Of a stretch of DNA of 64,000 bases, positions 14,649 to 34,244 are shown in pieces; the stretch's first letter is position 1, and every line of letters starts with the position of its first letter. Below the pieces are notes generated by a model, which was not told the DNA's origin, did not search any database, and saw nothing but the letters and a program-made list of their open reading frames with translations. Origin of the DNA: Brasilonema angustatum HA4187-MV1 (GTDB lineage Bacteria > Cyanobacteriota > Cyanobacteriia > Cyanobacteriales > Nostocaceae); NCBI GenBank assembly GCA_019359695.1, contig JAHHGV010000009.1, forward strand, positions 124,001-188,000, read 5' to 3'. The translations under genes were made by a program, and so were the position numbers.

Positions 14649-14772
14649 TGTTGTCAGCTTCTCGCCTAACCAACAGCGGCATGAGCAAACCAGCAGCGCG
14701 TGTTACCATCGAATCGGCAATCATCACCGCATCGAAAGGACAACTGGAAACAAAGCACAAAGCCTTCTTCAT
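14632..14772 (-). CDS. Possible 46-residue ORF coupled to the ABC exporter
   Basis: This frame starts within the stop codon of the exporter gene (ATGA overlap), an arrangement typical of translational coupling. It encodes 46 residues including SCPFDAVMIADSMVTRAAGL and ends 17 bp inside the convergent DUF4334 gene. The composition is protein-like, but I recognise no family. It may be a remnant of a longer downstream gene of the export locus. It could also be a chance frame. Confidence 0.28.
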   Translation of the reverse strand: MKKALCFVSSCPFDAVMIADSMVTRAAGLLMPLLVRREADNIIDRY

Positions 14773-17567
14773 TCCATTTGTCTAGCGACCAGTTGAGAAA
14801 ACAACCCCTCTTGTTCGGCTAATTCCTCAAATGTACCCACCTGTACAACGCGCCCTGCTTCCATCACATAAATTCGGTCAGCATTGCGAATCGTGCTGAG
14901 GCGGTGAGCAATCACTATCCGAGTTGCATTCAACTTATCTAAACTTTCAGTTACGATCGCTTGTGTGCGGTTATCCAAAGAACTGGTCGCTTCATCCATT
15001 AAAATAATTTTCGGCTTATTGACAAGTGCTCTAGCTATCAATAATCGCTGGCGTTGTCCTCCGGAGAGATTGGTACCACCTTCACTAATAACTGTGTGCA
15101 TCCCCATCGGCATTTGCTCAATATCACCAGCAAACCCCGCCATCCGCGCGGCTTCCCAAGCTTCAGTGCGCGATATCAACGCAGAGGCAGATATGTTCTC
15201 AAAAATTGAGCCAGATCCAATTCGACCATTTTGCAGCACTACCCCGAACTGCCTTCGCACCGCTACTAGATCTAATTCTGCCAAATCAAAACCATCGTAG
15301 TACACTTTTCCTGAGAGTGGAGTTTCAAACCCCAACAACAACCTCAATATTGTTGACTTTCCACTTCCTGATGGTCCCACAATCGCGACAAATTCCCCTG
15401 GTTGTGCGTAAACACTGACATCATCAAGAATTGGCGAACCATCGTCACGATAACGAAAGCTAATATGATCTAAAAGGACACGACCCGTCAAGCGTCCTGG
15501 ATCAACCTTGTTAGAATCGTATTCCATCTCCTGCTGCAAAATCGGTTTTGCCCGCTCCCACAGTGGTACAATCGCCAAAATAGTAATCAGAGTATTGCTG
15601 AGGTTGCTGACTCCCCCGATAAAAATTCCCAACGCGGAATTAAACGCCAAAAATGTTCCTGTTGTGAACCCGCCGCTACCACTGGCTTGAGCCTTTTGCA
15701 GAAACACCACCGCCAACCCAAACAACAGTGCCGAAGTAAGCAAAGATAGTATTTCGTTCAACACAGAAACACTGTCTTTAATTTGTTGCGATGTTGCTGT
15801 CAGTCTCGTTCTTTGGCTGTACTGATTTGCCCAAGCTGCAAACGCTCGTTCTTCTGCCTGCGCTACCCGCAACTTGGCGACTCCATTTATAAGTTGTACT
15901 GTTAGCCCACTAATTTCACCATCCAATTCTTGCAGCCGTCGCGAAAAGCGAACTAATAGCAAGCCAGAGACAGCAGTGATTGCAGCTGTTAGCAAAGCTA
16001 CGCCCACCCCAACTAAGGCGAGTTGCCAACTGTAAACAAACATTAGCACTGAGTTGAGTAAAGCAAACAGTCCGCTTAACAGGGTGCGTTGCGTTGCTCC
16101 CGATAGTAGCCGACGAATTTGGTTTACTGATAAAGTCCGGTTTAGTAAGTCGCCAGAGGAATAAGAGCGGAAAAATGCTGGACTTAATCTCAGGAGTCGA
16201 TCCCAAATCGCAGGCTGCAAACTACTATCAGCAGCATTTTCCACTCGCAATGAAATAATCCCTTGAGACAAGCCAAAAGCTGATCTTCCAAAGGCGATCG
16301 CAAACAGTGCCAGTCCTATTTGCGATAATAAACTCTGATCGCTATCTGGAATTGCATTATCCACCAAAAGCGCTGTTGCTTGCGGCACAACCATCCCTAA
16401 CAAACTACCAATTATCCCAGTTACCAGAATTAAAATGATGTCTTTTTCATAACCCTTAATGCCAAACTGAAACAACGCAAGTGCATTATTGATAACTTTG
16501 GGTAACGGTCGGTAAAACTGGTATGCTTGCGGTGCGAGGGTTGCCGCTACTGCTTGATTGACAAACGTGCGAGTTTGTGCAACCGGATCAAAGAAAATAT
16601 AATGTTTACCTGCTGGTAACAAAGCGATCGGACGCTTTTCCTCTTGGGTATAAGCTAAAAGTGGACCATACTCACTCAGCCACCAGTCAGACTCTAACAC
16701 CACGCGACGAGTCCGAATTTGGGAAGAGCGAGCAATAGCCTCCACTGGATCTTTGACTCGGCTGATGTCCTCAGACTGCGCCGGAGGATTTATCGTTATC
16801 CCCATTGCTCGTCCTACAGCACCCGCCGCCACCAGCAGCGGTGTTCCTTGAAAAGATACAGCTTCTTGCTCTGGTTGCAACACAGAAGCTAACTTAGAGA
16901 GTGCGGAATTGACAACCTGACGGTTGAGTTGCTCTCGTTGTTGAAATTGGCGAAACGCTGTCTGTGTTTCCTGCTGTTGCAACGAATTTAAATAGTTGAA
17001 GAATTCAGAATGTAACTCAGCCAAAAAGCTTGGCAGTGAAGCGGCATTTTCTGGTTTTATTAAGGATAAATAATGAGAAAAATTTCCTGCTGAGGGTTCG
17101 GTGCTGAATATTTCACTTAAGTGGTTTATCCAACCCTGTAAAAGCTCGATATGCGTAGCGTCAAGCCAAGGGCTTATTATCGCTCCTGTTTCACCCGCTA
17201 CTGCACCTGATGCTACCAAATCTGCGATGGAAATTTGGGATAATTCTGTTGCTTCAATTGCTATTGCTACTAAACTCAAGGATTCACCGATTTTGGTTGC
17301 GGCACCAAACAACGCTTCGCCTGCACTTACACTGAATAAATAACGGCGATGTTCGTTTGTAGCCGCCTCAGAAAGCCCAGAAGCCAAAGGCATCTCATCG
17401 GAGACTTTTGTGGCAAATAATGACACTTGCCCACTTTTAACGACCCAAACTTTTTCTGGGTCATCTAGCAGTAATCGTTCATTTCCTTTCAGGGAGACTC
17501 TCAAAATAGGATAAATCGTTATTAAGCGGTATAAAACAGATTGTTGACTGAGTGAGGAGTGGTGCAA
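14769..17567 (-). CDS. NHLP/NHLM-type peptide export ABC transporter, permease/ATPase without peptidase (ABC2)
   Basis: The 932-residue protein matches the second ABC subunit of NHLM bacteriocin export systems (TIGR03797 type). The N-terminus has the family segment GNERLLLDDPEKVWVVKSGQ (residues about 28-47), followed by a cyclic-nucleotide-binding-like region, a six-helix exporter domain at about 370-680, and an ATPase domain with Walker A GPSGSGKST, signature LSGGQRQR and Walker B IILMDEATS. It lacks a C39 peptidase domain, as expected for this subunit; the peptidase partner is at 28583-30910, about 11 kb away instead of adjacent. The TTG start lies only 35 bp from the tnpB stop and has no ribosome site, so the native 5' end may have been replaced by the IS607-type insertion. 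Confidence 0.9.
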   Translation of the reverse strand: MHHSSLSQQSVLYRLITIYPILRVSLKGNERLLLDDPEKVWVVKSGQVSLFATKVSDEMPLASGLSEAATNEHRRYLFSVSAGEALFGAATKIGESLSLVAIAIEATELSQISIADLVASGAVAGETGAIISPWLDATHIELLQGWINHLSEIFSTEPSAGNFSHYLSLIKPENAASLPSFLAELHSEFFNYLNSLQQQETQTAFRQFQQREQLNRQVVNSALSKLASVLQPEQEAVSFQGTPLLVAAGAVGRAMGITINPPAQSEDISRVKDPVEAIARSSQIRTRRVVLESDWWLSEYGPLLAYTQEEKRPIALLPAGKHYIFFDPVAQTRTFVNQAVAATLAPQAYQFYRPLPKVINNALALFQFGIKGYEKDIILILVTGIIGSLLGMVVPQATALLVDNAIPDSDQSLLSQIGLALFAIAFGRSAFGLSQGIISLRVENAADSSLQPAIWDRLLRLSPAFFRSYSSGDLLNRTLSVNQIRRLLSGATQRTLLSGLFALLNSVLMFVYSWQLALVGVGVALLTAAITAVSGLLLVRFSRRLQELDGEISGLTVQLINGVAKLRVAQAEERAFAAWANQYSQRTRLTATSQQIKDSVSVLNEILSLLTSALLFGLAVVFLQKAQASGSGGFTTGTFLAFNSALGIFIGGVSNLSNTLITILAIVPLWERAKPILQQEMEYDSNKVDPGRLTGRVLLDHISFRYRDDGSPILDDVSVYAQPGEFVAIVGPSGSGKSTILRLLLGFETPLSGKVYYDGFDLAELDLVAVRRQFGVVLQNGRIGSGSIFENISASALISRTEAWEAARMAGFAGDIEQMPMGMHTVISEGGTNLSGGQRQRLLIARALVNKPKIILMDEATSSLDNRTQAIVTESLDKLNATRIVIAHRLSTIRNADRIYVMEAGRVVQVGTFEELAEQEGLFSQLVARQME

Positions 17568-17602: not shown

Positions 17603-19099
17603 TTAATGCTGGGTTTTCTTTCTAGTCATTGGTAGACTCCCACCTACCAGTTTTTGAAACTCAGGGTTTTTCCGATGCTTAGAATCGAGCCAACTCAATT
17701 CCACTGCATCTTCCAAGCTCTTACCTTCAAGTTTCAAAAACATTGCAGTACGACGCAATAACACCGCTTGCACTTCACCCGCCTTCATGTAGCGAGTAAT
17801 TTCTTTATCCGTACCTCGATAAAGAATAGCCTTGGCGGCATTGCAGTCAGCCTGTACCACGACCCCAGTATGCCTGATAAAACGATCACCGTCCCGCTTC
17901 CCTAGAAGGGTAAACGTGGCAGCGTCCGTTTGTGACGTGTATGCAGCGTTGACCTCTGAGATCACTGAATCGCTCCAGTCAGCCCATTTCTTTAAACTGT
18001 CTCGCATCTGTCCTTTGACCGAACTGTTCAATTTGCGAGACATTGACTTGGCTTGACGTTTATTTTTGATGGGTTCCGTCAAGTCCTCTGCAAAAACCTT
18101 TAACTTACCTGCACTAAACAGGGATTTGGAAACACGACCAAGCAAGGAACAGATAACAGCTTGGTCTTTTTTGTAGCGCTTGTTTTCAGTTTTTCTGGAT
18201 AGGTTGTTTCCAAGAATGCGTGCGGCTTTCGCCCTGTCATACTCTTTATGCTTGCCAAAGATAGCAAACAGCTTGCCACGTTTATGATTCTTGTTTGTAA
18301 TTCTGTCTGACTTCTTGGTTAATAGCTTGCCTAGCCCTTCACCGTAAAACCTGCCATTAGAGTCAATCAAGGCTTCCGTGTATCCTTTGTCAATGCCGAT
18401 GGGTGTTCTTTCTTCGTCCTTTGATTTGATGTAAGTACCAAAGCTGACTAAAAAGTGAACCTCAAAGCGGTCTAACTCTGAATTGTAAATAACTCTGATT
18501 TGTCCGCTTGGTTTACGATTACTCCTCACATGGAACTGAACACGCTTACCTTTCCTCAAGCCAGACGCACTCAGCCTGTAAACAAAACGGCTGATCCGTG
18601 TTACCGAGTAAGCCTCTGGCTGATAAACAATCTGGTTGCCCACCCAGGTGTGACCACGTTGAAATTGTTCTCTGATAATTCTGCTTAAGAACGGGTCTTT
18701 ACGAAATTCAGTAGACTTGAGCTTTCTGTAAGCCTGATTGCGAGCTTCTTCGTCAGGATATCTAATCCAGATTTTACGAACTACAAGTGCAACTGTTGCA
18801 GCCTGTTGAGCAAGTATCGCCTTGGCGACATCGCTGACCGTCCATTCCATCAATTTGGATGGCAATCCCAATGATTCAGGTGTCCTAAACGAACGAACTT
18901 CAGGGTATGCATTCTGCCAGTTCATCCCCCAATGCCTGACACTGCCAAGCTTATTGTACGATTCAGAACGAACAATTCCTAAGCGCTTCATGAGATCCAA
19001 CAACTCAGATTTGACAGCATCGTCAATCAAGACAACGTTGACAACCTGAGTTGATAGTTTATGAAGCTCGTTTTTGGATTTCTTTTTGCGCCTGGACAT
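17603..19099 (-). CDS. tnpB: TnpB-like RNA-guided nuclease of an IS607-type element, zinc ribbon degenerate
   Basis: The 498-residue protein shows the split RuvC nuclease of TnpB: Asp237 (GIDKGYTEALID), Glu338 (VFAEDLTEP) and Asp418 (VVQADCNAAKAIL). The normal zinc ribbon between the second and third motifs (TSQ.C..C ... C..C) is present in outline (AYTSQTDAAT, RFIRHTGVVVQAD) but has none of its four cysteines. This pattern is also seen in some TnpB-derived, CRISPR-type V-U proteins. No CRISPR array is visible here. A serine-recombinase remnant upstream on the same strand identifies the element as IS607-like. The length is near the upper end for TnpB. Confidence 0.85.
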   Translation of the reverse strand: MSRRKKKSKNELHKLSTQVVNVVLIDDAVKSELLDLMKRLGIVRSESYNKLGSVRHWGMNWQNAYPEVRSFRTPESLGLPSKLMEWTVSDVAKAILAQQAATVALVVRKIWIRYPDEEARNQAYRKLKSTEFRKDPFLSRIIREQFQRGHTWVGNQIVYQPEAYSVTRISRFVYRLSASGLRKGKRVQFHVRSNRKPSGQIRVIYNSELDRFEVHFLVSFGTYIKSKDEERTPIGIDKGYTEALIDSNGRFYGEGLGKLLTKKSDRITNKNHKRGKLFAIFGKHKEYDRAKAARILGNNLSRKTENKRYKKDQAVICSLLGRVSKSLFSAGKLKVFAEDLTEPIKNKRQAKSMSRKLNSSVKGQMRDSLKKWADWSDSVISEVNAAYTSQTDAATFTLLGKRDGDRFIRHTGVVVQADCNAAKAILYRGTDKEITRYMKAGEVQAVLLRRTAMFLKLEGKSLEDAVELSWLDSKHRKNPEFQKLVGGSLPMTRKKTQH

Positions 19100-21966: not shown

Positions 21967-22194
21967 ATGAACGCACTTAACGTATCTGAAATCGCAACCA
22001 ACGCATTAGCATCTGGAAATTGGGAATTGCAAGACGAACTCAACGATGCTGATTTAATGACCATTTGTGGTGGTGGTGGACTAATAAATGTTGGAGATAT
22101 AGCAAGTAATAATGGAGGAGATGGAATAGGTGTTTTAAATAACGGAGATAATTTAAATAATCTTTTAAAGAATGCAATAATAAAGGTTTTGTAA
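21967..22194 (+). CDS. Gly/Asn-rich double-glycine precursor, array member 1
   Basis: The 75-residue product has a leader with ELNDADLMTICGG (Gly-Gly at 35-36, extended to GGGG) and a core of about 37 residues rich in Gly, Asn and Asp (NVGDIASNNGGDGIGVLNNG) that ends in a hydrophobic basic helix (LLKNAIIKVL). It differs from its neighbours by Cys34 in place of Ser in the leader and by GN in place of VN. The leader type suggests export by the C39 transporter of the locus. No modification enzyme is adjacent. Family not recognised. Confidence 0.75.
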   Translation: MNALNVSEIATNALASGNWELQDELNDADLMTICGGGGLINVGDIASNNGGDGIGVLNNGDNLNNLLKNAIIKVL

Positions 22195-22410
22195 GTTACT
22201 CCCCTTTGGGGGAGGACAAGGTACTGGGGGAGGACAAGGTAGCATGCAATTATAGCGTATAACGCCGATCACAACGCTCAATGCTTCGGTAGTAAATTTA
22301 TCGACAACTTTCTCCACCTCCTTTGCCTTCGATACCTAGCACTCACGCTTACGCTCAAATTCAACGTTTAAAGTATAAAGTCAAAACACACAAAACTTGA
22401 GGTTAAAAAA

Positions 22411-22638
22411 ATGAACGCACTTAACGCAATTGAAACCGCAACCAACGCATTAGCATCTGTAAATTGGGAATTGCAAGACGAACTCAACGATGCTGATTTA
22501 ATGGCAATTTCTGGTGGTGGTGGACTAATAAATGTTGGAGATATAGCAAGTAATAATGGAGGAGATGGAATAGGTGTTTTAAATAATGGAGATAATTTAA
22601 ATGATGCTTTAAAGAATGCAATAATAAAGGTTTTGTAA
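22411..22638 (+). CDS. Gly/Asn-rich double-glycine precursor, array member 2
   Basis: The 75-residue product is nearly identical to member 1, with leader ELNDADLMAISGGGG and the core end DALKNAIIKVL. It starts at ATG with the copied TTGAGGT ribosome site. The upstream 170 bp, including GCGTATAACGCCGATCACAA and the TATAAAGTC-like element near 22375, is repeated before members 3 and 4, so each gene may have its own promoter. A short hairpin-like CTCCCGTTTGGGGGAG follows the stop. Confidence 0.75.
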   Translation: MNALNAIETATNALASVNWELQDELNDADLMAISGGGGLINVGDIASNNGGDGIGVLNNGDNLNDALKNAIIKVL

Positions 22639-22836
22639 GTCACTCCCGTTTGGGGGAGGACAAGGTAGCATGTAATTATAGCGTATAACGCCGATCACAA
22701 CGCTTAATGCTTCGGTAGTAAATTTATCGACAACTTTCTCCACCTCTTTTACCTTCGATACCTAGCACTCACGCTTACGCTCAAATTCAACGTTTAAAAT
22801 ATAAAGTCAAAACACACAAAACTTGAGGTTAAAAAA

Positions 22837-23076
22837 ATGAACGCACTTAACGCAATTGAAACCGCAACCAACGCATTAGCATCTGTAAATTGGGAATTGC
22901 AAGATGAACTAAATGATGCTGATTTAATGGCAATTTCTGGTGGTGGTGGATCACTAGTAAATGTTGGAGATATAGCAAGTAATAATGGAGGAGATGGAAT
23001 AGGTGTTTTAAGTAATGGAGATAATTTAAATAATTTAGGAAAAAATCTTATTGTAAGTGTTTTAGGGGGGTTATAA
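22837..23076 (+). CDS. Gly/Asn-rich double-glycine precursor, array member 3
   Basis: The 79-residue product keeps the leader unchanged but its core reads GGSLVNVGDIASNNGG and ends NLGKNLIVSVLGGL, so the C-terminal hydrophobic helix has diverged from members 1 and 2. Conservation of the leader with change at the core C-terminus is the usual pattern of selection on peptide precursors. Confidence 0.75.
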   Translation: MNALNAIETATNALASVNWELQDELNDADLMAISGGGGSLVNVGDIASNNGGDGIGVLSNGDNLNNLGKNLIVSVLGGL

Positions 23077-23281
23077 GGTAGTTACTTCCGTTTGGGGGAG
23101 GAGGAGAAGGTAGTATGCAATTATAGCGTATAACGCCGATCACAACGCTTAATGCTTCGGTAGTAAATTTATCGACAACTTTCTCCACCTCTTTTACCTT
23201 CGATACCTAGCACTCACGCTTACGCTCAAATTCAACGTTTAAAATATAAAGTCAAAACACACAAAACTTGAGGTTAAAAAA

Positions 23282-23533
23282 ATGAACGCACTTAACGCAA
23301 TTGAAACCGCAACCAACGCATTAGCATCTGTAAATTGGGAATTGCAAGACGAACTAAATGATGCTGATTTAATGGCAATTTCTGGTGGTGGTGGATCATT
23401 AGTAAATGTTGGAGATATAGCAAGTAATAATCCAGGAGATGGAATAGGTGTTTTAAATAACGGAAATAATTTAAATAATCTAGGAAAGAATCTTATTGTA
23501 AGTGTTGGAGGTTCGTTAGGTGGGTTAGTTTAA
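23282..23533 (+). CDS. Gly/Asn-rich double-glycine precursor, array member 4
   Basis: The 83-residue product has the same leader; its core has NNPGDGIGVLNNGNN (Gly to Pro and Asp to Asn changes) and a longer C-terminus (LIVSVGGSLGGLV). It is the last copy; the hairpin terminator at 23771 follows 240 bp later. The 3' flank begins with a diverged copy of the inter-gene spacer. Confidence 0.75.
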   Translation: MNALNAIETATNALASVNWELQDELNDADLMAISGGGGSLVNVGDIASNNPGDGIGVLNNGNNLNNLGKNLIVSVGGSLGGLV

Positions 23534-28582: not shown

Positions 28583-30910
28583 TCATTCTTCAGTACGCAG
28601 CAAGCTAGCATATTTCCCCCCTGAGTCCCATAACTCTTCATGCGTACCCCGCTGCACCACTTTACCCTGCTCCAGTACAATAATTTCATCACAATCGCGA
28701 ATCGTACTGAGTCTGTGCGCTATCACAATACAAGAACAACCACGTCGCCGCAAATTCCTATCAATAATCAATTCTGTTTGAGCATCCAGCGCCGAAGTCG
28801 CTTCATCCATAACCAATACCGCCGGATTCCGAACCATTGCACGAGCAATTTCTAAACGTTGGCGCTGTCCACCACTGATGTTCATTCCTCCTTCAATCAG
28901 CTTTGTATCATATCCCCCAGGCATAGATTCAATTAAATCGTGAATGACTGCATCAGAGCAAGCTCGCACCAAATCAGTTTGTGATACTGTTGAATCCCAT
29001 AAGGTAAGATTTTCCCGAACCGTCCCACCAAACAGAAAAATATCTTGTTCTACCATCGCCAAAGAATTCGCCAAAACAGAGCGAGGAATCTGAGTTCTCG
29101 GTACGCCATCAAAGCAAATTCCCCCAGACCAAGGTTCGTATAAACCGCAAACTAGCTTAGCAATTGTAGACTTACCAGAACCACTCCCCCCCACGATCGC
29201 CACTCGTTGTCCCGGCTTGAGAGTTAGGCTAAAGTTCTCAATCAAAGGATCGTCCACACGGCTATAGCCAAAGGTAATATCTTGTAACTCAACATAACCC
29301 TGCAACCGAAAGGATATTGGTAATTGGTAATTCTCCCCTGCTTCCTCTGCTCCCTGCTCCCTGCTCCCTGCTCCCTGCTCCCTGCTCCCTGCTCCCTGCT
29401 CCCTGCTCCCTGCTCCCTGCTCCCTGCTCCCTGCTCCCTGCTCCCTGCTCCCTGCTCCCCCTGCTCCCCCTGCTCCCCGTAAGGCTTCTGCATCGACGGA
29501 GTTTTGCAGTACATCATCGAGGCGGTTTAAGTCAGCCTCTAAATCTTGCAACATACTGCCAAAATTAATCAAACTGTTAATTGGCTCTAGGAAGCTGGCT
29601 GTTAAACTTTGGTAAGCAACCAACATCCCAATACTCAGGTTACCGCTCATCACCCGATAACCGCCGAGAAATAATATAGAAGTTGTTGTCAGCGCCGTCA
29701 AAAGTGTCGGTAATACTGTCAGAATTTGAGTTTGTAAAGCTAATTGCTGCTGAGCGTTGAGGGCTTTGGCATAGTTCCCGGCAAATTTAGCAAACGAGTC
29801 TGATTCAAGCCCAGAAGCTTTGATTGTTTCTATGGTTTGAATACCGGCGATCGCCACCCCGTTGACCTTACCATATTCCTGCGCCAGCTTCATATTGGCA
29901 TCTACTCTCGTTCGCGATAAAAACTGTAGAGCGAAAAAGTTTATCGCGGCAAAACCAAGAGCAACACTCGTCAGTACCCAATCGTACTGGAGCATAATCA
30001 GAAAGTAAAACACCATCATCACCGTGTCAATGATTGTGGTGGCAAGGGTTCCTGAAAGGAGATTAGCAACTTTGTCATTCAGTTGCACACGAGAGCTAAT
30101 TTCACCTGCAAAGCGTTGAGCATAAAACCCAACTGGTAAGCGTAGAATATGCCAGAGAAACTGCCCCGACGTTGTCACCGACAACTTAACCATCAACCGC
30201 CGCAAAGAAGTCAGCCGCAGCCAAGCAAGAAACCCCTGGAGTACAGCGGTGAGAACCATTCCTAACATCAGCGGTCGTATCCAGTCAGAGCGCTCAGTGA
30301 CGAGAATTTCATCAACAAACACCTGAGTAAAAGCTGGCACAGCTAACCTGGGAAAAGTCAGTAATAGTCCTGCCAATAAGCAAAAGAAAATGGTGTTCTG
30401 CGAATTTTGCAAGCGTGAGGCTAAAGCAGAAACAACGTTATTTTTTTTACCTCCTCTTTGAAAGTCTGATCCTGGTTGCATAGCCAGGACGATCCCAGTG
30501 TAGGCGCGGCTAAACTCTTCTAGGGAAGCTGTTCGACGTCCTGTGGCGGGATCGTTGAGGTAAACGCGGTTTTTCGCGAACCCTTCCACCACAAGAAAAT
30601 GGTTGAAATTCCAAAAGACAATGTAGGGGGGAGGAAGGGTTTTGAGGTTTTCCAAAGACGGTTTGAAACCTTTGGCATTTAAGCCATAGTTCCTCGCTGC
30701 TTTGATAACATTAAAGGCGTTGCTACCATCTCGCGAGACGCCACACTCACGCCGTAATTCTGCCAAAGGGACAATGCGCGAGTAATAACCTAAAATAATT
30801 CCCAAAGCAGCAGCACCACATTCCGTTGCTTCGATTTGCAGGAGCGTGGGGGTACGGACGCGACTCGTTTGAGGTCGAGGTAGGAGACTTTTAATGAAGG
30901 CAAAGGGCAT
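28583..30910 (-). CDS. NHLP/NHLM-type export ABC transporter with C39 peptidase (ABC1)
   Basis: The 775-residue protein has three domains in order: an N-terminal C39 peptidase with catalytic Cys31 (QIEATECGAAALGIILG), His in NFNHFLVVEGF and Asp in VYLNDPATG; a six-helix exporter domain at about 165-465; and an ATPase domain with Walker A GGSGSGKST, signature ISGGQRQR and Walker B VLVMDEATS. It matches TIGR03796-type NHLM peptidase/permease/ATPases. C39 peptidases cut after Gly-Gly, Gly-Ala or similar pairs during export. A tract of GSREQGA repeats encoded by a heptamer array lies in the linker before the ATPase. It is the last of four consecutive minus-strand genes with HlyD, the chaplin-like peptide and MauE-Trx. 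Confidence 0.93.
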   Translation of the reverse strand: MPFAFIKSLLPRPQTSRVRTPTLLQIEATECGAAALGIILGYYSRIVPLAELRRECGVSRDGSNAFNVIKAARNYGLNAKGFKPSLENLKTLPPPYIVFWNFNHFLVVEGFAKNRVYLNDPATGRRTASLEEFSRAYTGIVLAMQPGSDFQRGGKKNNVVSALASRLQNSQNTIFFCLLAGLLLTFPRLAVPAFTQVFVDEILVTERSDWIRPLMLGMVLTAVLQGFLAWLRLTSLRRLMVKLSVTTSGQFLWHILRLPVGFYAQRFAGEISSRVQLNDKVANLLSGTLATTIIDTVMMVFYFLIMLQYDWVLTSVALGFAAINFFALQFLSRTRVDANMKLAQEYGKVNGVAIAGIQTIETIKASGLESDSFAKFAGNYAKALNAQQQLALQTQILTVLPTLLTALTTTSILFLGGYRVMSGNLSIGMLVAYQSLTASFLEPINSLINFGSMLQDLEADLNRLDDVLQNSVDAEALRGAGGAGGAGSREQGAGSREQGAGSREQGAGSREQGAGSREQGAEEAGENYQLPISFRLQGYVELQDITFGYSRVDDPLIENFSLTLKPGQRVAIVGGSGSGKSTIAKLVCGLYEPWSGGICFDGVPRTQIPRSVLANSLAMVEQDIFLFGGTVRENLTLWDSTVSQTDLVRACSDAVIHDLIESMPGGYDTKLIEGGMNISGGQRQRLEIARAMVRNPAVLVMDEATSALDAQTELIIDRNLRRRGCSCIVIAHRLSTIRDCDEIIVLEQGKVVQRGTHEELWDSGGKYASLLRTEE
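29348..29459. repeat. Heptanucleotide array (TGCTCCC)16 inside the exporter gene
   Basis: Sixteen perfect tandem copies of TGCTCCC are followed by two imperfect copies. On the coding strand the unit GGGAGCA read over three copies gives GSREQGA. Gain or loss of one or two units shifts the frame of the ATPase domain, three units keep it. Heptamer arrays of this type are known in filamentous cyanobacteria. Confidence 0.97.
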
Positions 30911-31049: not shown

Positions 31050-31970
31050 TTAACTGTTCACTGTAACAGATAGGTTTGGTTTGACGCGTTGAACAAAGGC
31101 TAGTGGCATCACCCCCAACCATTTTTCCCGAATTATGCCGTTCTCCAGCAATACGCCAGTTGGAAAAGCTTCAGCGAAGCGACTCATAACGAACGGGTTC
31201 ATCGCCACTACCGGAAAGTTGATATTATGAAGTTGAACAAATTCTTGAACTTCTTCCGGCGTTCGGGCAACTCCTGCCACTACATCTGGTAAATCAGGTC
31301 TTTTGTGAACTATTTTTAGCACTTTGATCCAGCTTTTGCACATTTGACAACCCGGCATTAAAAACACAACTAGTTTGTCACCTGTTGTTAAACTATCGGC
31401 GTATTCTTCTATCCATTTGGGTTGCCAAAGGTGATCAACTTTAAGCAGAGATAAGTCCAAGAGAGGTTTTTGTTTCTTCCACAAATACAAATACGAAACA
31501 CCAGTTAATAGACAACTCATTGCCAAAGAAATGAGTAATGCTGTCACTTGCTGGGAAACTGTTAAAATATCGGCGACGGGATAAAACCAAGCCAAGCCAA
31601 TCAAAGCAGTGTAGAGGATGTTGAGGAGTAAACTTTGGTTGGGACTAATATTAATCAGACCGTTATAGCAACCACAATTATTTGTGCGTTTGGTTGAGGT
31701 ACTCCAGTAAGTTAAACCCGATAAGACCAGTAACAGAACAAGTGTACCCGGAAAAAGCCACTGAGGAAATAGCCGTAAAATTAAGGCTATTCCAAGGACA
31801 CACTCTAGAATTGTGAAGGCGATCGCAACAGCTAGATTCACCTTTTGGGAAAACAACTGCAATTTAGTAATGTGGATAATAAACGTCTCTTGTGCGAGTG
31901 CTTTGACAATACCTGTCAGCAGAAATACACTGCCTACCACTAAGGTACTGATGAGAGAAATTGAATACAT
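31050..31970 (-). CDS. MauE/DoxX-like membrane protein fused to a thioredoxin-like domain
   Basis: The start is placed at ATG 31970 (MYSISLISTLVVG), since the upstream codons consist of a hairpin-repeat sequence; GTG 32015 is possible. The 306-residue protein has a MauE-type membrane part with four to five helices and a Cys-X-Cys pair (NNCGCYNG, residues 99 and 101), then a thioredoxin-like domain with Cys-X-X-Cys (LMPGCQMCKSW, 208 and 211) and a cis-Pro-like segment (NFPVVA). Proteins of this type pass electrons or oxidising equivalents across the membrane to form disulfides, as with MauE/MauD and VKOR-Trx fusions. It lies between the exporter and the two-cysteine chaplin-like gene, which suggests the latter is its substrate. 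Confidence 0.78.
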   Translation of the reverse strand: MYSISLISTLVVGSVFLLTGIVKALAQETFIIHITKLQLFSQKVNLAVAIAFTILECVLGIALILRLFPQWLFPGTLVLLLVLSGLTYWSTSTKRTNNCGCYNGLINISPNQSLLLNILYTALIGLAWFYPVADILTVSQQVTALLISLAMSCLLTGVSYLYLWKKQKPLLDLSLLKVDHLWQPKWIEEYADSLTTGDKLVVFLMPGCQMCKSWIKVLKIVHKRPDLPDVVAGVARTPEEVQEFVQLHNINFPVVAMNPFVMSRFAEAFPTGVLLENGIIREKWLGVMPLAFVQRVKPNLSVTVNS

Positions 31971-32100: not shown

Positions 32101-32412
32101 TTAAGCTTTAACAGAAGCATCAACAGAAGCATTAACACATGTATTCCCGAAAGCTGGATTAAGCAGACCAATTACGTTGACAGTATTACCACAAACGTTA
32201 ACAGGTACATGAACTGGTACTTGAACAAGATTACCCGAAAGGACACCAGGTGAACCGACAGCAGCGCCCTGCGCACCAGCATCTCCAGCTATTACTGTCA
32301 ATAAATCTGCATCATCAAGTTCCTCAAACCATTCCCCATCTTTTGATGATTGAATCAGTATAGGAGCTTGTTTCGTTGCTTTTTTTTCTTTTGTCTGAAA
32401 CATTTTAAACAT
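32101..32412 (-). CDS. Chaplin-domain protein with a double-glycine-type export leader
   Basis: The 103-residue product has a good AAGGAAAA ribosome site before ATG 32412. Residues 1-43 form a leader ending ELDDADLLTVIAG, aligned position by position with the precursor leaders of this locus (DADL.......GG). Residues 44-95 are a chaplin domain: DAGAQGAAVGSPGVLSGN, VQVPVHVPVNVCGN and VIGLLNPAFGNTC. Chaplins are surface-active amyloid-forming peptides of Streptomyces aerial hyphae, normally exported by Sec. The two cysteines (74 and 92) are spaced as in chaplins, where they form a disulfide. The sequence after the leader starts exactly where mature actinobacterial chaplins start. A short tail (ASVDASVKA) follows. 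Neighbours are HlyD upstream and MauE-Trx downstream. It is an apparent transfer from Actinobacteria. Confidence 0.9.
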   Translation of the reverse strand: MFKMFQTKEKKATKQAPILIQSSKDGEWFEELDDADLLTVIAGDAGAQGAAVGSPGVLSGNLVQVPVHVPVNVCGNTVNVIGLLNPAFGNTCVNASVDASVKA

Positions 32413-32636: not shown

Positions 32637-34244
32637 TTAATACACACCAGTCCAAGAGCGAAAAAGAGGAATAATGTAAGAAATAGGTGCCACTTCTCCA
32701 ACTTTGACCCGAACTTCTGTAGTCGTACCTGACGAGATTTGTAGTGCTGGTCCATTAGAAGAAGACCATTTGTAACCGCTGACAGTGTTTGGGTCTTTTT
32801 GTAGTTCGACGAAAACTTGCACACGAGCCGCGTTACTATTAGCAAGACTTTTAGCTATGTCTTCGTTGCCAACTTGCGCTGTAATATCGCCAGTTGTCAC
32901 AGGGAAGGGAGAAACTCTTGTTACCAGCCCGACAATTCCACCGAAGCGATCGCGCTTGACAACGCTAGGTGTAACCTGTACCGTCATACCTGGTTTTATT
33001 TGTTTGCCATCCTTATCAGCAAAGTAAACAAGACTTGTTAGTTTGGCTTTGGAGTCAAGAGCTTCGATCGTCCCAATACGAGTGCCAGAATTGACAATTT
33101 GACCAGCGAGAACCCCTACTTCTAAAACGCGACCATCATATTTACTAATAACTTGGCTTGATTGAGTTAATTGCAATTTTAATTGGGCAATTTTGCGTTT
33201 AACTTCCTGAATTTGATTTAATTGATTTATTGATTTTTCTAAATCTTGTTGAACTAGTTTAGTTTTTTGAGTTTCGATATCTTTAATTTTAGTTTTGATT
33301 TCATCAAGCTTATTTTGATTTTGTAGATAATCGCGCTCAGCACTTGTTCTTTGAACTTCAAGCTCTTGAATATTATTTTTGATCTCGTCAGTTTTACTCA
33401 AGTTTTGTAGATATTCACGTTCGCTGGTTGTTTTTTGAACATCAAGGTCTTTGAGTTGTGTTGAAATCTCTGATATTTCCTTTTGAGCGTTCAACAATTC
33501 CTGCTGAGATTGCAGTAGTGTATCCTGGCTAATAATCTTCTGTTCAAAAAGACTACGACGAGTTGAAACTCGTTGTTGCAAGGTTTGTAGCAATGCACTG
33601 ATTTGTTGCTTTTGCTGTTCAAGGCTTTTGCGTTTTTCTACTAGTGCGGTGAGAGTTTGTTTGTACAGCACTGGCGCGACTTGTTCTCTGGACACGCTTT
33701 GCTCAAGGCTTTGTCGTTTTTGCTTTAACGCTTCAAGGGTTTGTGAATGTAGCACTGGTGCGACTGATTCTCGATGCAAGGTTTCTTGAAAGTCTTTTTG
33801 CTGCTGTTGAAGCGTTCTTAGCGCCAGCACTGTTTGCTGCTTTTGCAGCCTATCGGTGTTTAGATTCTGTTCTAGAAGTTGGTTTAACTTTGCTTGTTCT
33901 TGTTGTAGTTGTTGCCTAATATTGGATTGGTCGATGATGGCGAGTACTTGACCTTGCCTAACCACATCTCCTGGCTTGATATTTAAAGCTAGTAATTGAC
34001 CAGCACTGAGTGTTTGAAATGGCACCACATGACGAGGCCGGCTCAACACGCCGGAACCTGTGACAGTGAGTGGAATTCGCCCGACTACACTCCAAATACC
34101 AGCTATAACGACCAAAAAGCCCATAGAAATCAAAGGTAACCAAACTTGCTGGCTTGTGACCTGCATGAGTTGGTCAAGTTGTTCTGGTGACGACAGCTGT
34201 TCTAACGCTTCTTCTCGGAAGAGTCTGCTTGTTTTATTTTCCAT
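32637..34244 (-). CDS. HlyD-type membrane fusion protein of NHLM peptide export
   Basis: The 535-residue protein begins with the family segment LFREEALEQLSSPEQLDQLM, then one membrane helix (PLISMGFLVVIAGIWSVVG, about 37-55). The periplasmic part has a biotinyl-lipoyl-like half (GSGVLSRPRHVVPFQ, VVRQGQVLAIID), a coiled-coil region of about 250 residues (LEQQKQQISALLQ and others, with an internally repeated segment RTSAERDYLQN), and the second half ending in a beta-barrel. It fits NHLM bacteriocin secretion proteins (TIGR03794 type) and bridges the inner-membrane exporter and the outer membrane. It is the first gene of the minus-strand export group. Confidence 0.9.
   Translation of the reverse strand: MENKTSRLFREEALEQLSSPEQLDQLMQVTSQQVWLPLISMGFLVVIAGIWSVVGRIPLTVTGSGVLSRPRHVVPFQTLSAGQLLALNIKPGDVVRQGQVLAIIDQSNIRQQLQQEQAKLNQLLEQNLNTDRLQKQQTVLALRTLQQQQKDFQETLHRESVAPVLHSQTLEALKQKRQSLEQSVSREQVAPVLYKQTLTALVEKRKSLEQQKQQISALLQTLQQRVSTRRSLFEQKIISQDTLLQSQQELLNAQKEISEISTQLKDLDVQKTTSEREYLQNLSKTDEIKNNIQELEVQRTSAERDYLQNQNKLDEIKTKIKDIETQKTKLVQQDLEKSINQLNQIQEVKRKIAQLKLQLTQSSQVISKYDGRVLEVGVLAGQIVNSGTRIGTIEALDSKAKLTSLVYFADKDGKQIKPGMTVQVTPSVVKRDRFGGIVGLVTRVSPFPVTTGDITAQVGNEDIAKSLANSNAARVQVFVELQKDPNTVSGYKWSSSNGPALQISSGTTTEVRVKVGEVAPISYIIPLFRSWTGVY

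Follow-up and report, generated by a model that had tools for sequence, protein, structure and literature searches.

How does a cyanobacterium come to encode a chaplin, the coat-forming surface protein of Streptomyces, behind a leader of the kind found on bacteriocin precursors? The question is raised by an open reading frame at positions 32101–32412 of the 64,000-nucleotide stretch of contig JAHHGV010000009.1 of Brasilonema angustatum HA4187-MV1 analyzed here (hereafter the window), for which a first-pass annotation had proposed an actinobacterial-type chaplin whose Sec signal had been exchanged, at the mature N-terminus, for a double-glycine (GG) leader directing it to an NHLM exporter. We examined in turn the domain, the leader, the neighboring genes and the distribution of the combination. 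The features concerned are listed in Table 1.

Table 1. Location of the features described in the text (window positions unless a retrieved locus, L011, L014 or L105, is named)
Feature	Location	Strand	Characteristics
Chaplin-domain precursor	32101–32412	-	103 aa, ATG to stop; PF03777 at residues 42–94
Double-glycine-type leader	32284–32412	-	residues 1–43, ending ELDDADLLTVIAG (residues 31–43)
Predicted mature chaplin	32104–32283	-	residues 44–103, Cys74 and Cys92
Membrane MauE domain plus thioredoxin-like domain, probable disulfide catalyst	31050–31970	-	CGC and CQMC motifs; PF07291 57.5 bits (cut-off 27)
NHLM-type HlyD adaptor	32637–34244	-	TIGR03794 337.7 bits (cut-off 156.2)
NHLM-type ABC exporter with C39 peptidase	28583–30910	-	TIGR03796 1156.2 bits (cut-off 853.3); PF03412 120 bits; Cys31, His104, Asp120
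In-frame run of EQGAGSR repeats inside the NHLM exporter gene	29360–29443	-	
Other GG-type precursors (starts)	19999, 21967, 22411, 22837, 23282	+	
Other GG-type precursor (start)	25545	-	
Four similar tandem GG precursors	21967–23533	+	starts 426–445 bp apart
TnpB-like protein	17603–19099	-	Cas12f1-like_TNB PF07282 24.6 bits, just under the cut-off of 26.3
NHLM_ABC2 gene	14769–17567		
Nostoc chaplin with a Sec-like N-terminus	L014:9263–9622	+	
Second GG precursor	L011:9177–9407	+	
Orphan chaplin C-terminal half	L011:9438–9500	+	
NHLM cluster of Nostoc G509 (HlyD, C39 exporter, MauE-thioredoxin)	L105:5052–10256	+	
GG-like precursor of Nostoc G509	L105:11899–12210		two cysteines after the GG

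A chaplin domain behind a double-glycine-type leader

The observation made in the first-pass annotation is confirmed, with two corrections. The reading frame lies on the minus strand, which had not been stated (the plus strand over the same span contains stops), and we count six, not five, other GG-type precursors in the window. The sequences SPGVLSGN, VPVHVPVNVCGN and IGLLNPAFGNTC are present and the two cysteines are 18 positions apart. The profile search that the annotation had named as its test identified a single Pfam family, PF03777, at 100.2 bits (gathering score 21, E 5.8e-29), whereas NCBIfam gave no match at E ≤ 1. The six cyanobacterial relatives described below score 83.1–95.8 bits, and both cysteines are invariant in the seven cyanobacterial copies; two conserved cysteines are present in all S. 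coelicolor chaplins except ChpE (PMC5618241). A sequence search against solved structures returned nothing meaningful for the chaplin (best E 0.49).

The search for related loci retained 80 of 574 confirmed stretches, of which 2 are cyanobacterial and 78 actinobacterial by title, so that other phyla are not excluded. The best actinobacterial match, from Streptomyces xanthophaeus, is 96% identical over residues 44–96. Of the 78 actinobacterial loci 76 could be read through the domain (L036 and L066 lacked a readable one); all 76 have AxA followed by D or E within 16 residues upstream of it, and 10 have DAGAQGAAVGSPGVLSGN to the letter. Similarity thus starts at Asp44, where Streptomyces signal peptides end: ...AVA|DAGAQGAAVGSPGVLSGN in Streptomyces corresponds to ...VIAG|DAGAQGAAVGSPGVLSGN here, and the replacement is at the mature N-terminus, as had been proposed. 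Chaplins are exported by Sec; the papers cited here speak of signal peptides. Residues 1–43 are instead charged, end in a GG-type motif and show no hydrophobic core, as judged without a signal-peptide program; the N-terminal signal peptide that is typical of known chaplins, although not part of the Pfam definition, is therefore not found in this copy.

To test whether the resemblance of the leader to those of the other precursors could be due to chance, a matrix was built from four of the six window precursors. It scores the chaplin leader 16.2, whereas the best position outside precursor leaders, among 17,695 positions in 581 window ORFs, scores 6.7; 2 of 20,000 shuffles of the protein reach 16.2, and the equivalent 16 residues at the signal-peptide ends of the 75 of 78 actinobacterial loci that could be read here score −11.7 or less. 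An HMM of all six leaders ranks the chaplin seventh of the 581 ORFs, just after the six themselves, but only at E 0.092. Moreover, the window copy ends in AG and, at E ≤ 1, matches no Pfam GG-leader model. On the other hand, the leader is conserved in six species: five relatives have GG at this position, score 16.9–29.8 with the matrix and match the ComC or Bacteriocin_IIc models of Pfam at E 0.003–0.05, below the cut-offs of these models.

Genomic context and the probable redox partner

The chaplin gene lies downstream of the HlyD adaptor gene and upstream of genes for a MauE-thioredoxin membrane protein and an NHLM exporter. That the four genes form one transcript is inferred from order and strand. 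Cys31, His104 and Asp120 of the exporter fit the catalytic triad of C39 peptidases. The cassette resembles the NHLM/NHLP bacteriocin export systems (TIGR03794, TIGR03796, TIGR03797) in its adaptor, its exporter and the type of leader, but its cargo is a surface-amyloid domain and no peptide-modifying enzyme was recognized among the four operon genes.

The MauE-thioredoxin protein had been overlooked in the first-pass annotation. Four cysteines (Cys102, 104, 211 and 214), forming CGC in the membrane part and CxxC in the thioredoxin part, are invariant in nine of nine sequences. The structural model is weak overall (mean pLDDT 62.5, with ten-residue blocks of 61–88 over residues 181–300), but the modelled C-terminal domain matches thioredoxins of the FetE and ResA type in a Foldseek search (E about 1e-5, TM by target 0.51–0.64 over about 110 columns); Pfam thioredoxin-like matches stay below cut-off. 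Compared with MauE/MauD, BT_3928-like and ResA/FetE-type thiol oxidoreductases, the MauE membrane domain and the thioredoxin-like CxxC domain are here fused in one protein, which remains below the NCBIfam cut-offs for BT_3928 (67.8 of 250) and MauD (19.3 of 188.6) and is tied to GG-leader cysteine peptides. A partial literature search on MauE gave nothing useful apart from a title on a Campylobacter fet cluster.

Distribution among cyanobacteria

PF03777 matches 3 of 7 genomes of the genus, 7 of 217 genomes of the family (Nostocaceae) in 2 of 56 genera, 2 of 388 in an order sample and 1 of 386 in a phylum sample, these sets being overlapping; the window's own genome has this single match at E ≤ 1. 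Six copies carry the GG-type leader, in Brasilonema genomes G000, G001 and G005 (the last equated with Brasilonema sp. CT11) and in Nostoc genomes G484 (equated with Nostoc sp. 'Peltigera membranacea cyanobiont' 210A), G495 and G512, the other genus names following from kinship to these two. The seventh, in Nostoc G489, has an N-terminal hydrophobic stretch ending in AFA that looks Sec-like by eye and no MauE-thioredoxin neighbor; it may be a separate capture or an earlier form. Neither the Nostoc relatives nor this Sec-like copy had been noticed in the first-pass annotation.

All six GG-leader genes lie upstream of a MauE-thioredoxin gene, in the three Nostoc loci with a second GG precursor between them. 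These second precursors have 2, 2 and 4 cysteines in the mature part, while the six other precursors of the window have none. Among the 217 Nostocaceae, close MauE-thioredoxin homologs (74% identity or more) occur in 7 genomes, namely the six with a GG-leader chaplin and Brasilonema G002 (Fisher p 5e-11, uncorrected for and inflated by kinship), and none was found at E ≤ 1e-15 in the genome with the Sec-like chaplin. We therefore read the protein as a disulfide catalyst for exported cysteine peptides, the direction of the reaction being an inference.

Adaptor and exporter are found alongside in the window and two Brasilonema relatives only. In the three Nostoc loci neither is adjacent, a point missed in the first-pass annotation, although intact NHLM_ABC1 matches over the cut-off exist elsewhere in G489, G495 and G512; in G484 the only such match has four internal stops. 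Across genomes G000–G006, G484, G489, G495, G509 and G512 there are 8 to 17 matches to the NHLM_ABC1 model per genome at E ≤ 1e-100, most below the family cut-off. Furthermore, G002 keeps adaptor, MauE-thioredoxin and exporter without a chaplin, the gap holding unrelated sequence with short repeats, so that these parts do not need it. Distant MauE-thioredoxin homologs (46% and 43% identity) occur without chaplin in G509, inside another NHLM cluster (L105), and in G084, beside PqqD-like genes.

Relation to the Streptomyces chaplins

Contamination or misassembly with Streptomyces DNA, for which only the protein similarity speaks, is refuted. Against the S. xanthophaeus copy the window domain is 94% identical in protein over 54 residues but 72% in DNA, third-position GC is 0.22 against 0.91, only 7 of 36 fourfold sites agree, and the same operon is present in three Brasilonema assemblies. 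These identities compare only copies of equal length, so that for 5 of the 7 cyanobacterial copies none of a different length is listed. The transfer is old at silent sites, hence not recent, while the protein stays within the Streptomyces range.

An origin in Actinobacteria is favored by distribution, since five Streptomyces records have 12, 9, 4, 9 and 13 domain matches against the few cyanobacterial ones. In a plasmid collection 19 records match (16 Streptomyces, 2 Embleya and 1 Streptomycetaceae). The domain phylogeny does not support a donor or a single origin. The tree rests on 41 columns and 76 distinct rows, 7 of them cyanobacterial; 7 of 73 inner branches are starred, the bootstrap had not settled, and the cyanobacterial rows are scattered, requiring 7 changes against a shuffled mean of 6.8. 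Starred branches force at least 2 label changes, and one of them (97/80) places G005 with two Streptomyces copies, which speaks against one capture or shows that the few columns converge. More than one capture is thus possible.

Within Brasilonema, dN/dS is 0.97, 0.46 and 0.63 for the three chaplin pairs, against 0.11 to 0.30 for the operon neighbors (MauE-thioredoxin, HlyD and ABC); the highest value, based on 27 changes, is that of G000 and G005, a pair in which the three neighbors give 0.14–0.26. Many of the changes are swaps such as V, L, I or S, N that also occur among Streptomyces copies. This may reflect exchange among allowed residues, relaxed constraint, diversification or repeated capture, the counts being small. 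A non-functional or dying fusion, joined by recombination and of no use, would agree with the value near 1 in one pair, with the absence of the chaplin from 4 of 7 Brasilonema genomes and with Nostoc G512, where an orphan chaplin C-terminal half follows a second precursor sharing the chaplin's leader start, a sign of recombination between leader and cargo. We consider this unlikely, as the gene is intact in six genomes of two genera, with 49 invariant positions including both cysteines and the same downstream gene each time.

Proposed export and function

The explanation that we favor, with a probability of about 0.66, is that a Streptomyces-type short chaplin was acquired by a heterocystous cyanobacterium and that its signal peptide was replaced, at the mature N-terminus, by a double-glycine-type leader. 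In this view the Brasilonema precursor is made from an operon with its own exporter: the C39 domain of the NHLM ABC protein would cut after residue 43 and export the peptide through the HlyD adaptor, the MauE-thioredoxin protein would oxidize Cys74 and Cys92 outside the cytoplasm, and the mature chaplin would assemble at the cell surface or the air-water boundary as a hydrophobic amyloid film. The domain, the leader, the junction, the gene order and the co-occurrence are established by the present analysis, whereas the direction of transfer, co-transcription, cleavage, the export route, the disulfide, amyloid and coat assembly, and any benefit to the cell are inferred. The interpretation given in the first-pass annotation is therefore supported in those parts that sequence can address.

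Compared with the short chaplins of Streptomyces (ChpD-H), the protein shares the single domain, the two cysteines 18 apart, the small mature peptide and the mature N-terminus, but differs by its GG-type leader, by the exporter and MauE-thioredoxin genes in the operon and by being one gene in the genome instead of 4–13 domain matches per record. The chaplin domain is in essence the mature short chaplin, and the cysteines of ChpH are needed for aerial hyphae, although reduced chaplins still form fibrils in vitro (PMC5618241, PMC3079736), so that disulfides are not required for fibrils in vitro.

The first-pass annotation held that chaplin secretion through a C39 transporter was not known to have been described. 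No cyanobacterial or C39-exported chaplin appeared among the titles and abstract beginnings in our literature searches, although these were partial and did not cover most subscription journals, so that absence from print is not proved. On the other hand, C39 export of amyloid-forming proteins as such is already known in a cyanobacterium: in Synechococcus elongatus PCC 7942 the small GG-leader proteins EbfG1–4 are released with the help of a C39 protein (PteB) and EbfG1–3 form amyloids (PMC9981879, PMC4997328). Mature EbfG is described as lacking known domains and homologs in other cyanobacteria (PMC4997328), whereas here the cargo is a chaplin and a redox partner is present. What is new here is the MauE-thioredoxin partner, probably a disulfide catalyst.

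By analogy with EbfG, and because some chaplins act in the attachment of mycelium to surfaces (PMC4255298), the exported protein might be an adhesin or matrix amyloid for attachment and filament aggregation rather than a coat. This remains possible but less likely, since no anchor is recognized in the sequence (Pfam finds the chaplin domain only) and mature EbfG proteins are said to show no homology to proteins of other cyanobacteria (PMC4997328). A bacteriocin-like product aimed at neighbors, for instance a decoy that co-assembles with and spoils Streptomyces coats, could be suggested from the bacteriocin-type operon, the six other GG precursors in the window, the near-identity to Streptomyces sequences despite scrambled silent sites, and the mostly amino-acid-changing variation within Brasilonema. 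It is however improbable: no immunity gene was recognized in the operon, albeit without a dedicated search, and chaplin fibrils restore aerial growth to a chaplin mutant rather than block it (PMC3079736). In the same unlikely but not excluded direction, a captured Streptomyces amyloid, re-addressed to a bacteriocin exporter and given a dedicated disulfide catalyst, would be used outside the cell against or among Streptomyces, joining and spoiling their coats or letting the cyanobacterium pass as coated; the cassette would then show that GG leaders and C39 exporters can serve as a general exchangeable route for foreign surface amyloids.

The locus is a natural case of an export signal swapped exactly at a mature N-terminus between two unrelated secretion routes, with a chaplin in an organism that has an outer membrane. 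It makes testable how an amyloid surfactant crosses an outer membrane, whether a MauE-thioredoxin protein serves disulfides in GG peptides and whether cyanobacteria build hydrophobic protein coats, and it offers a predicted C39-exported amyloid cargo for material engineering.

Other features of the window

The four tandem GG precursors share the leader ELNDADLM..GG and a GIGVLNNGDNLNN-like mature part without cysteines. The TnpB-like gene lies next to the NHLM_ABC2 gene. As to the exporter of the chaplin operon, which contains the run of EQGAGSR repeats, its counterparts in the three Brasilonema relatives are 33–36 aa shorter.
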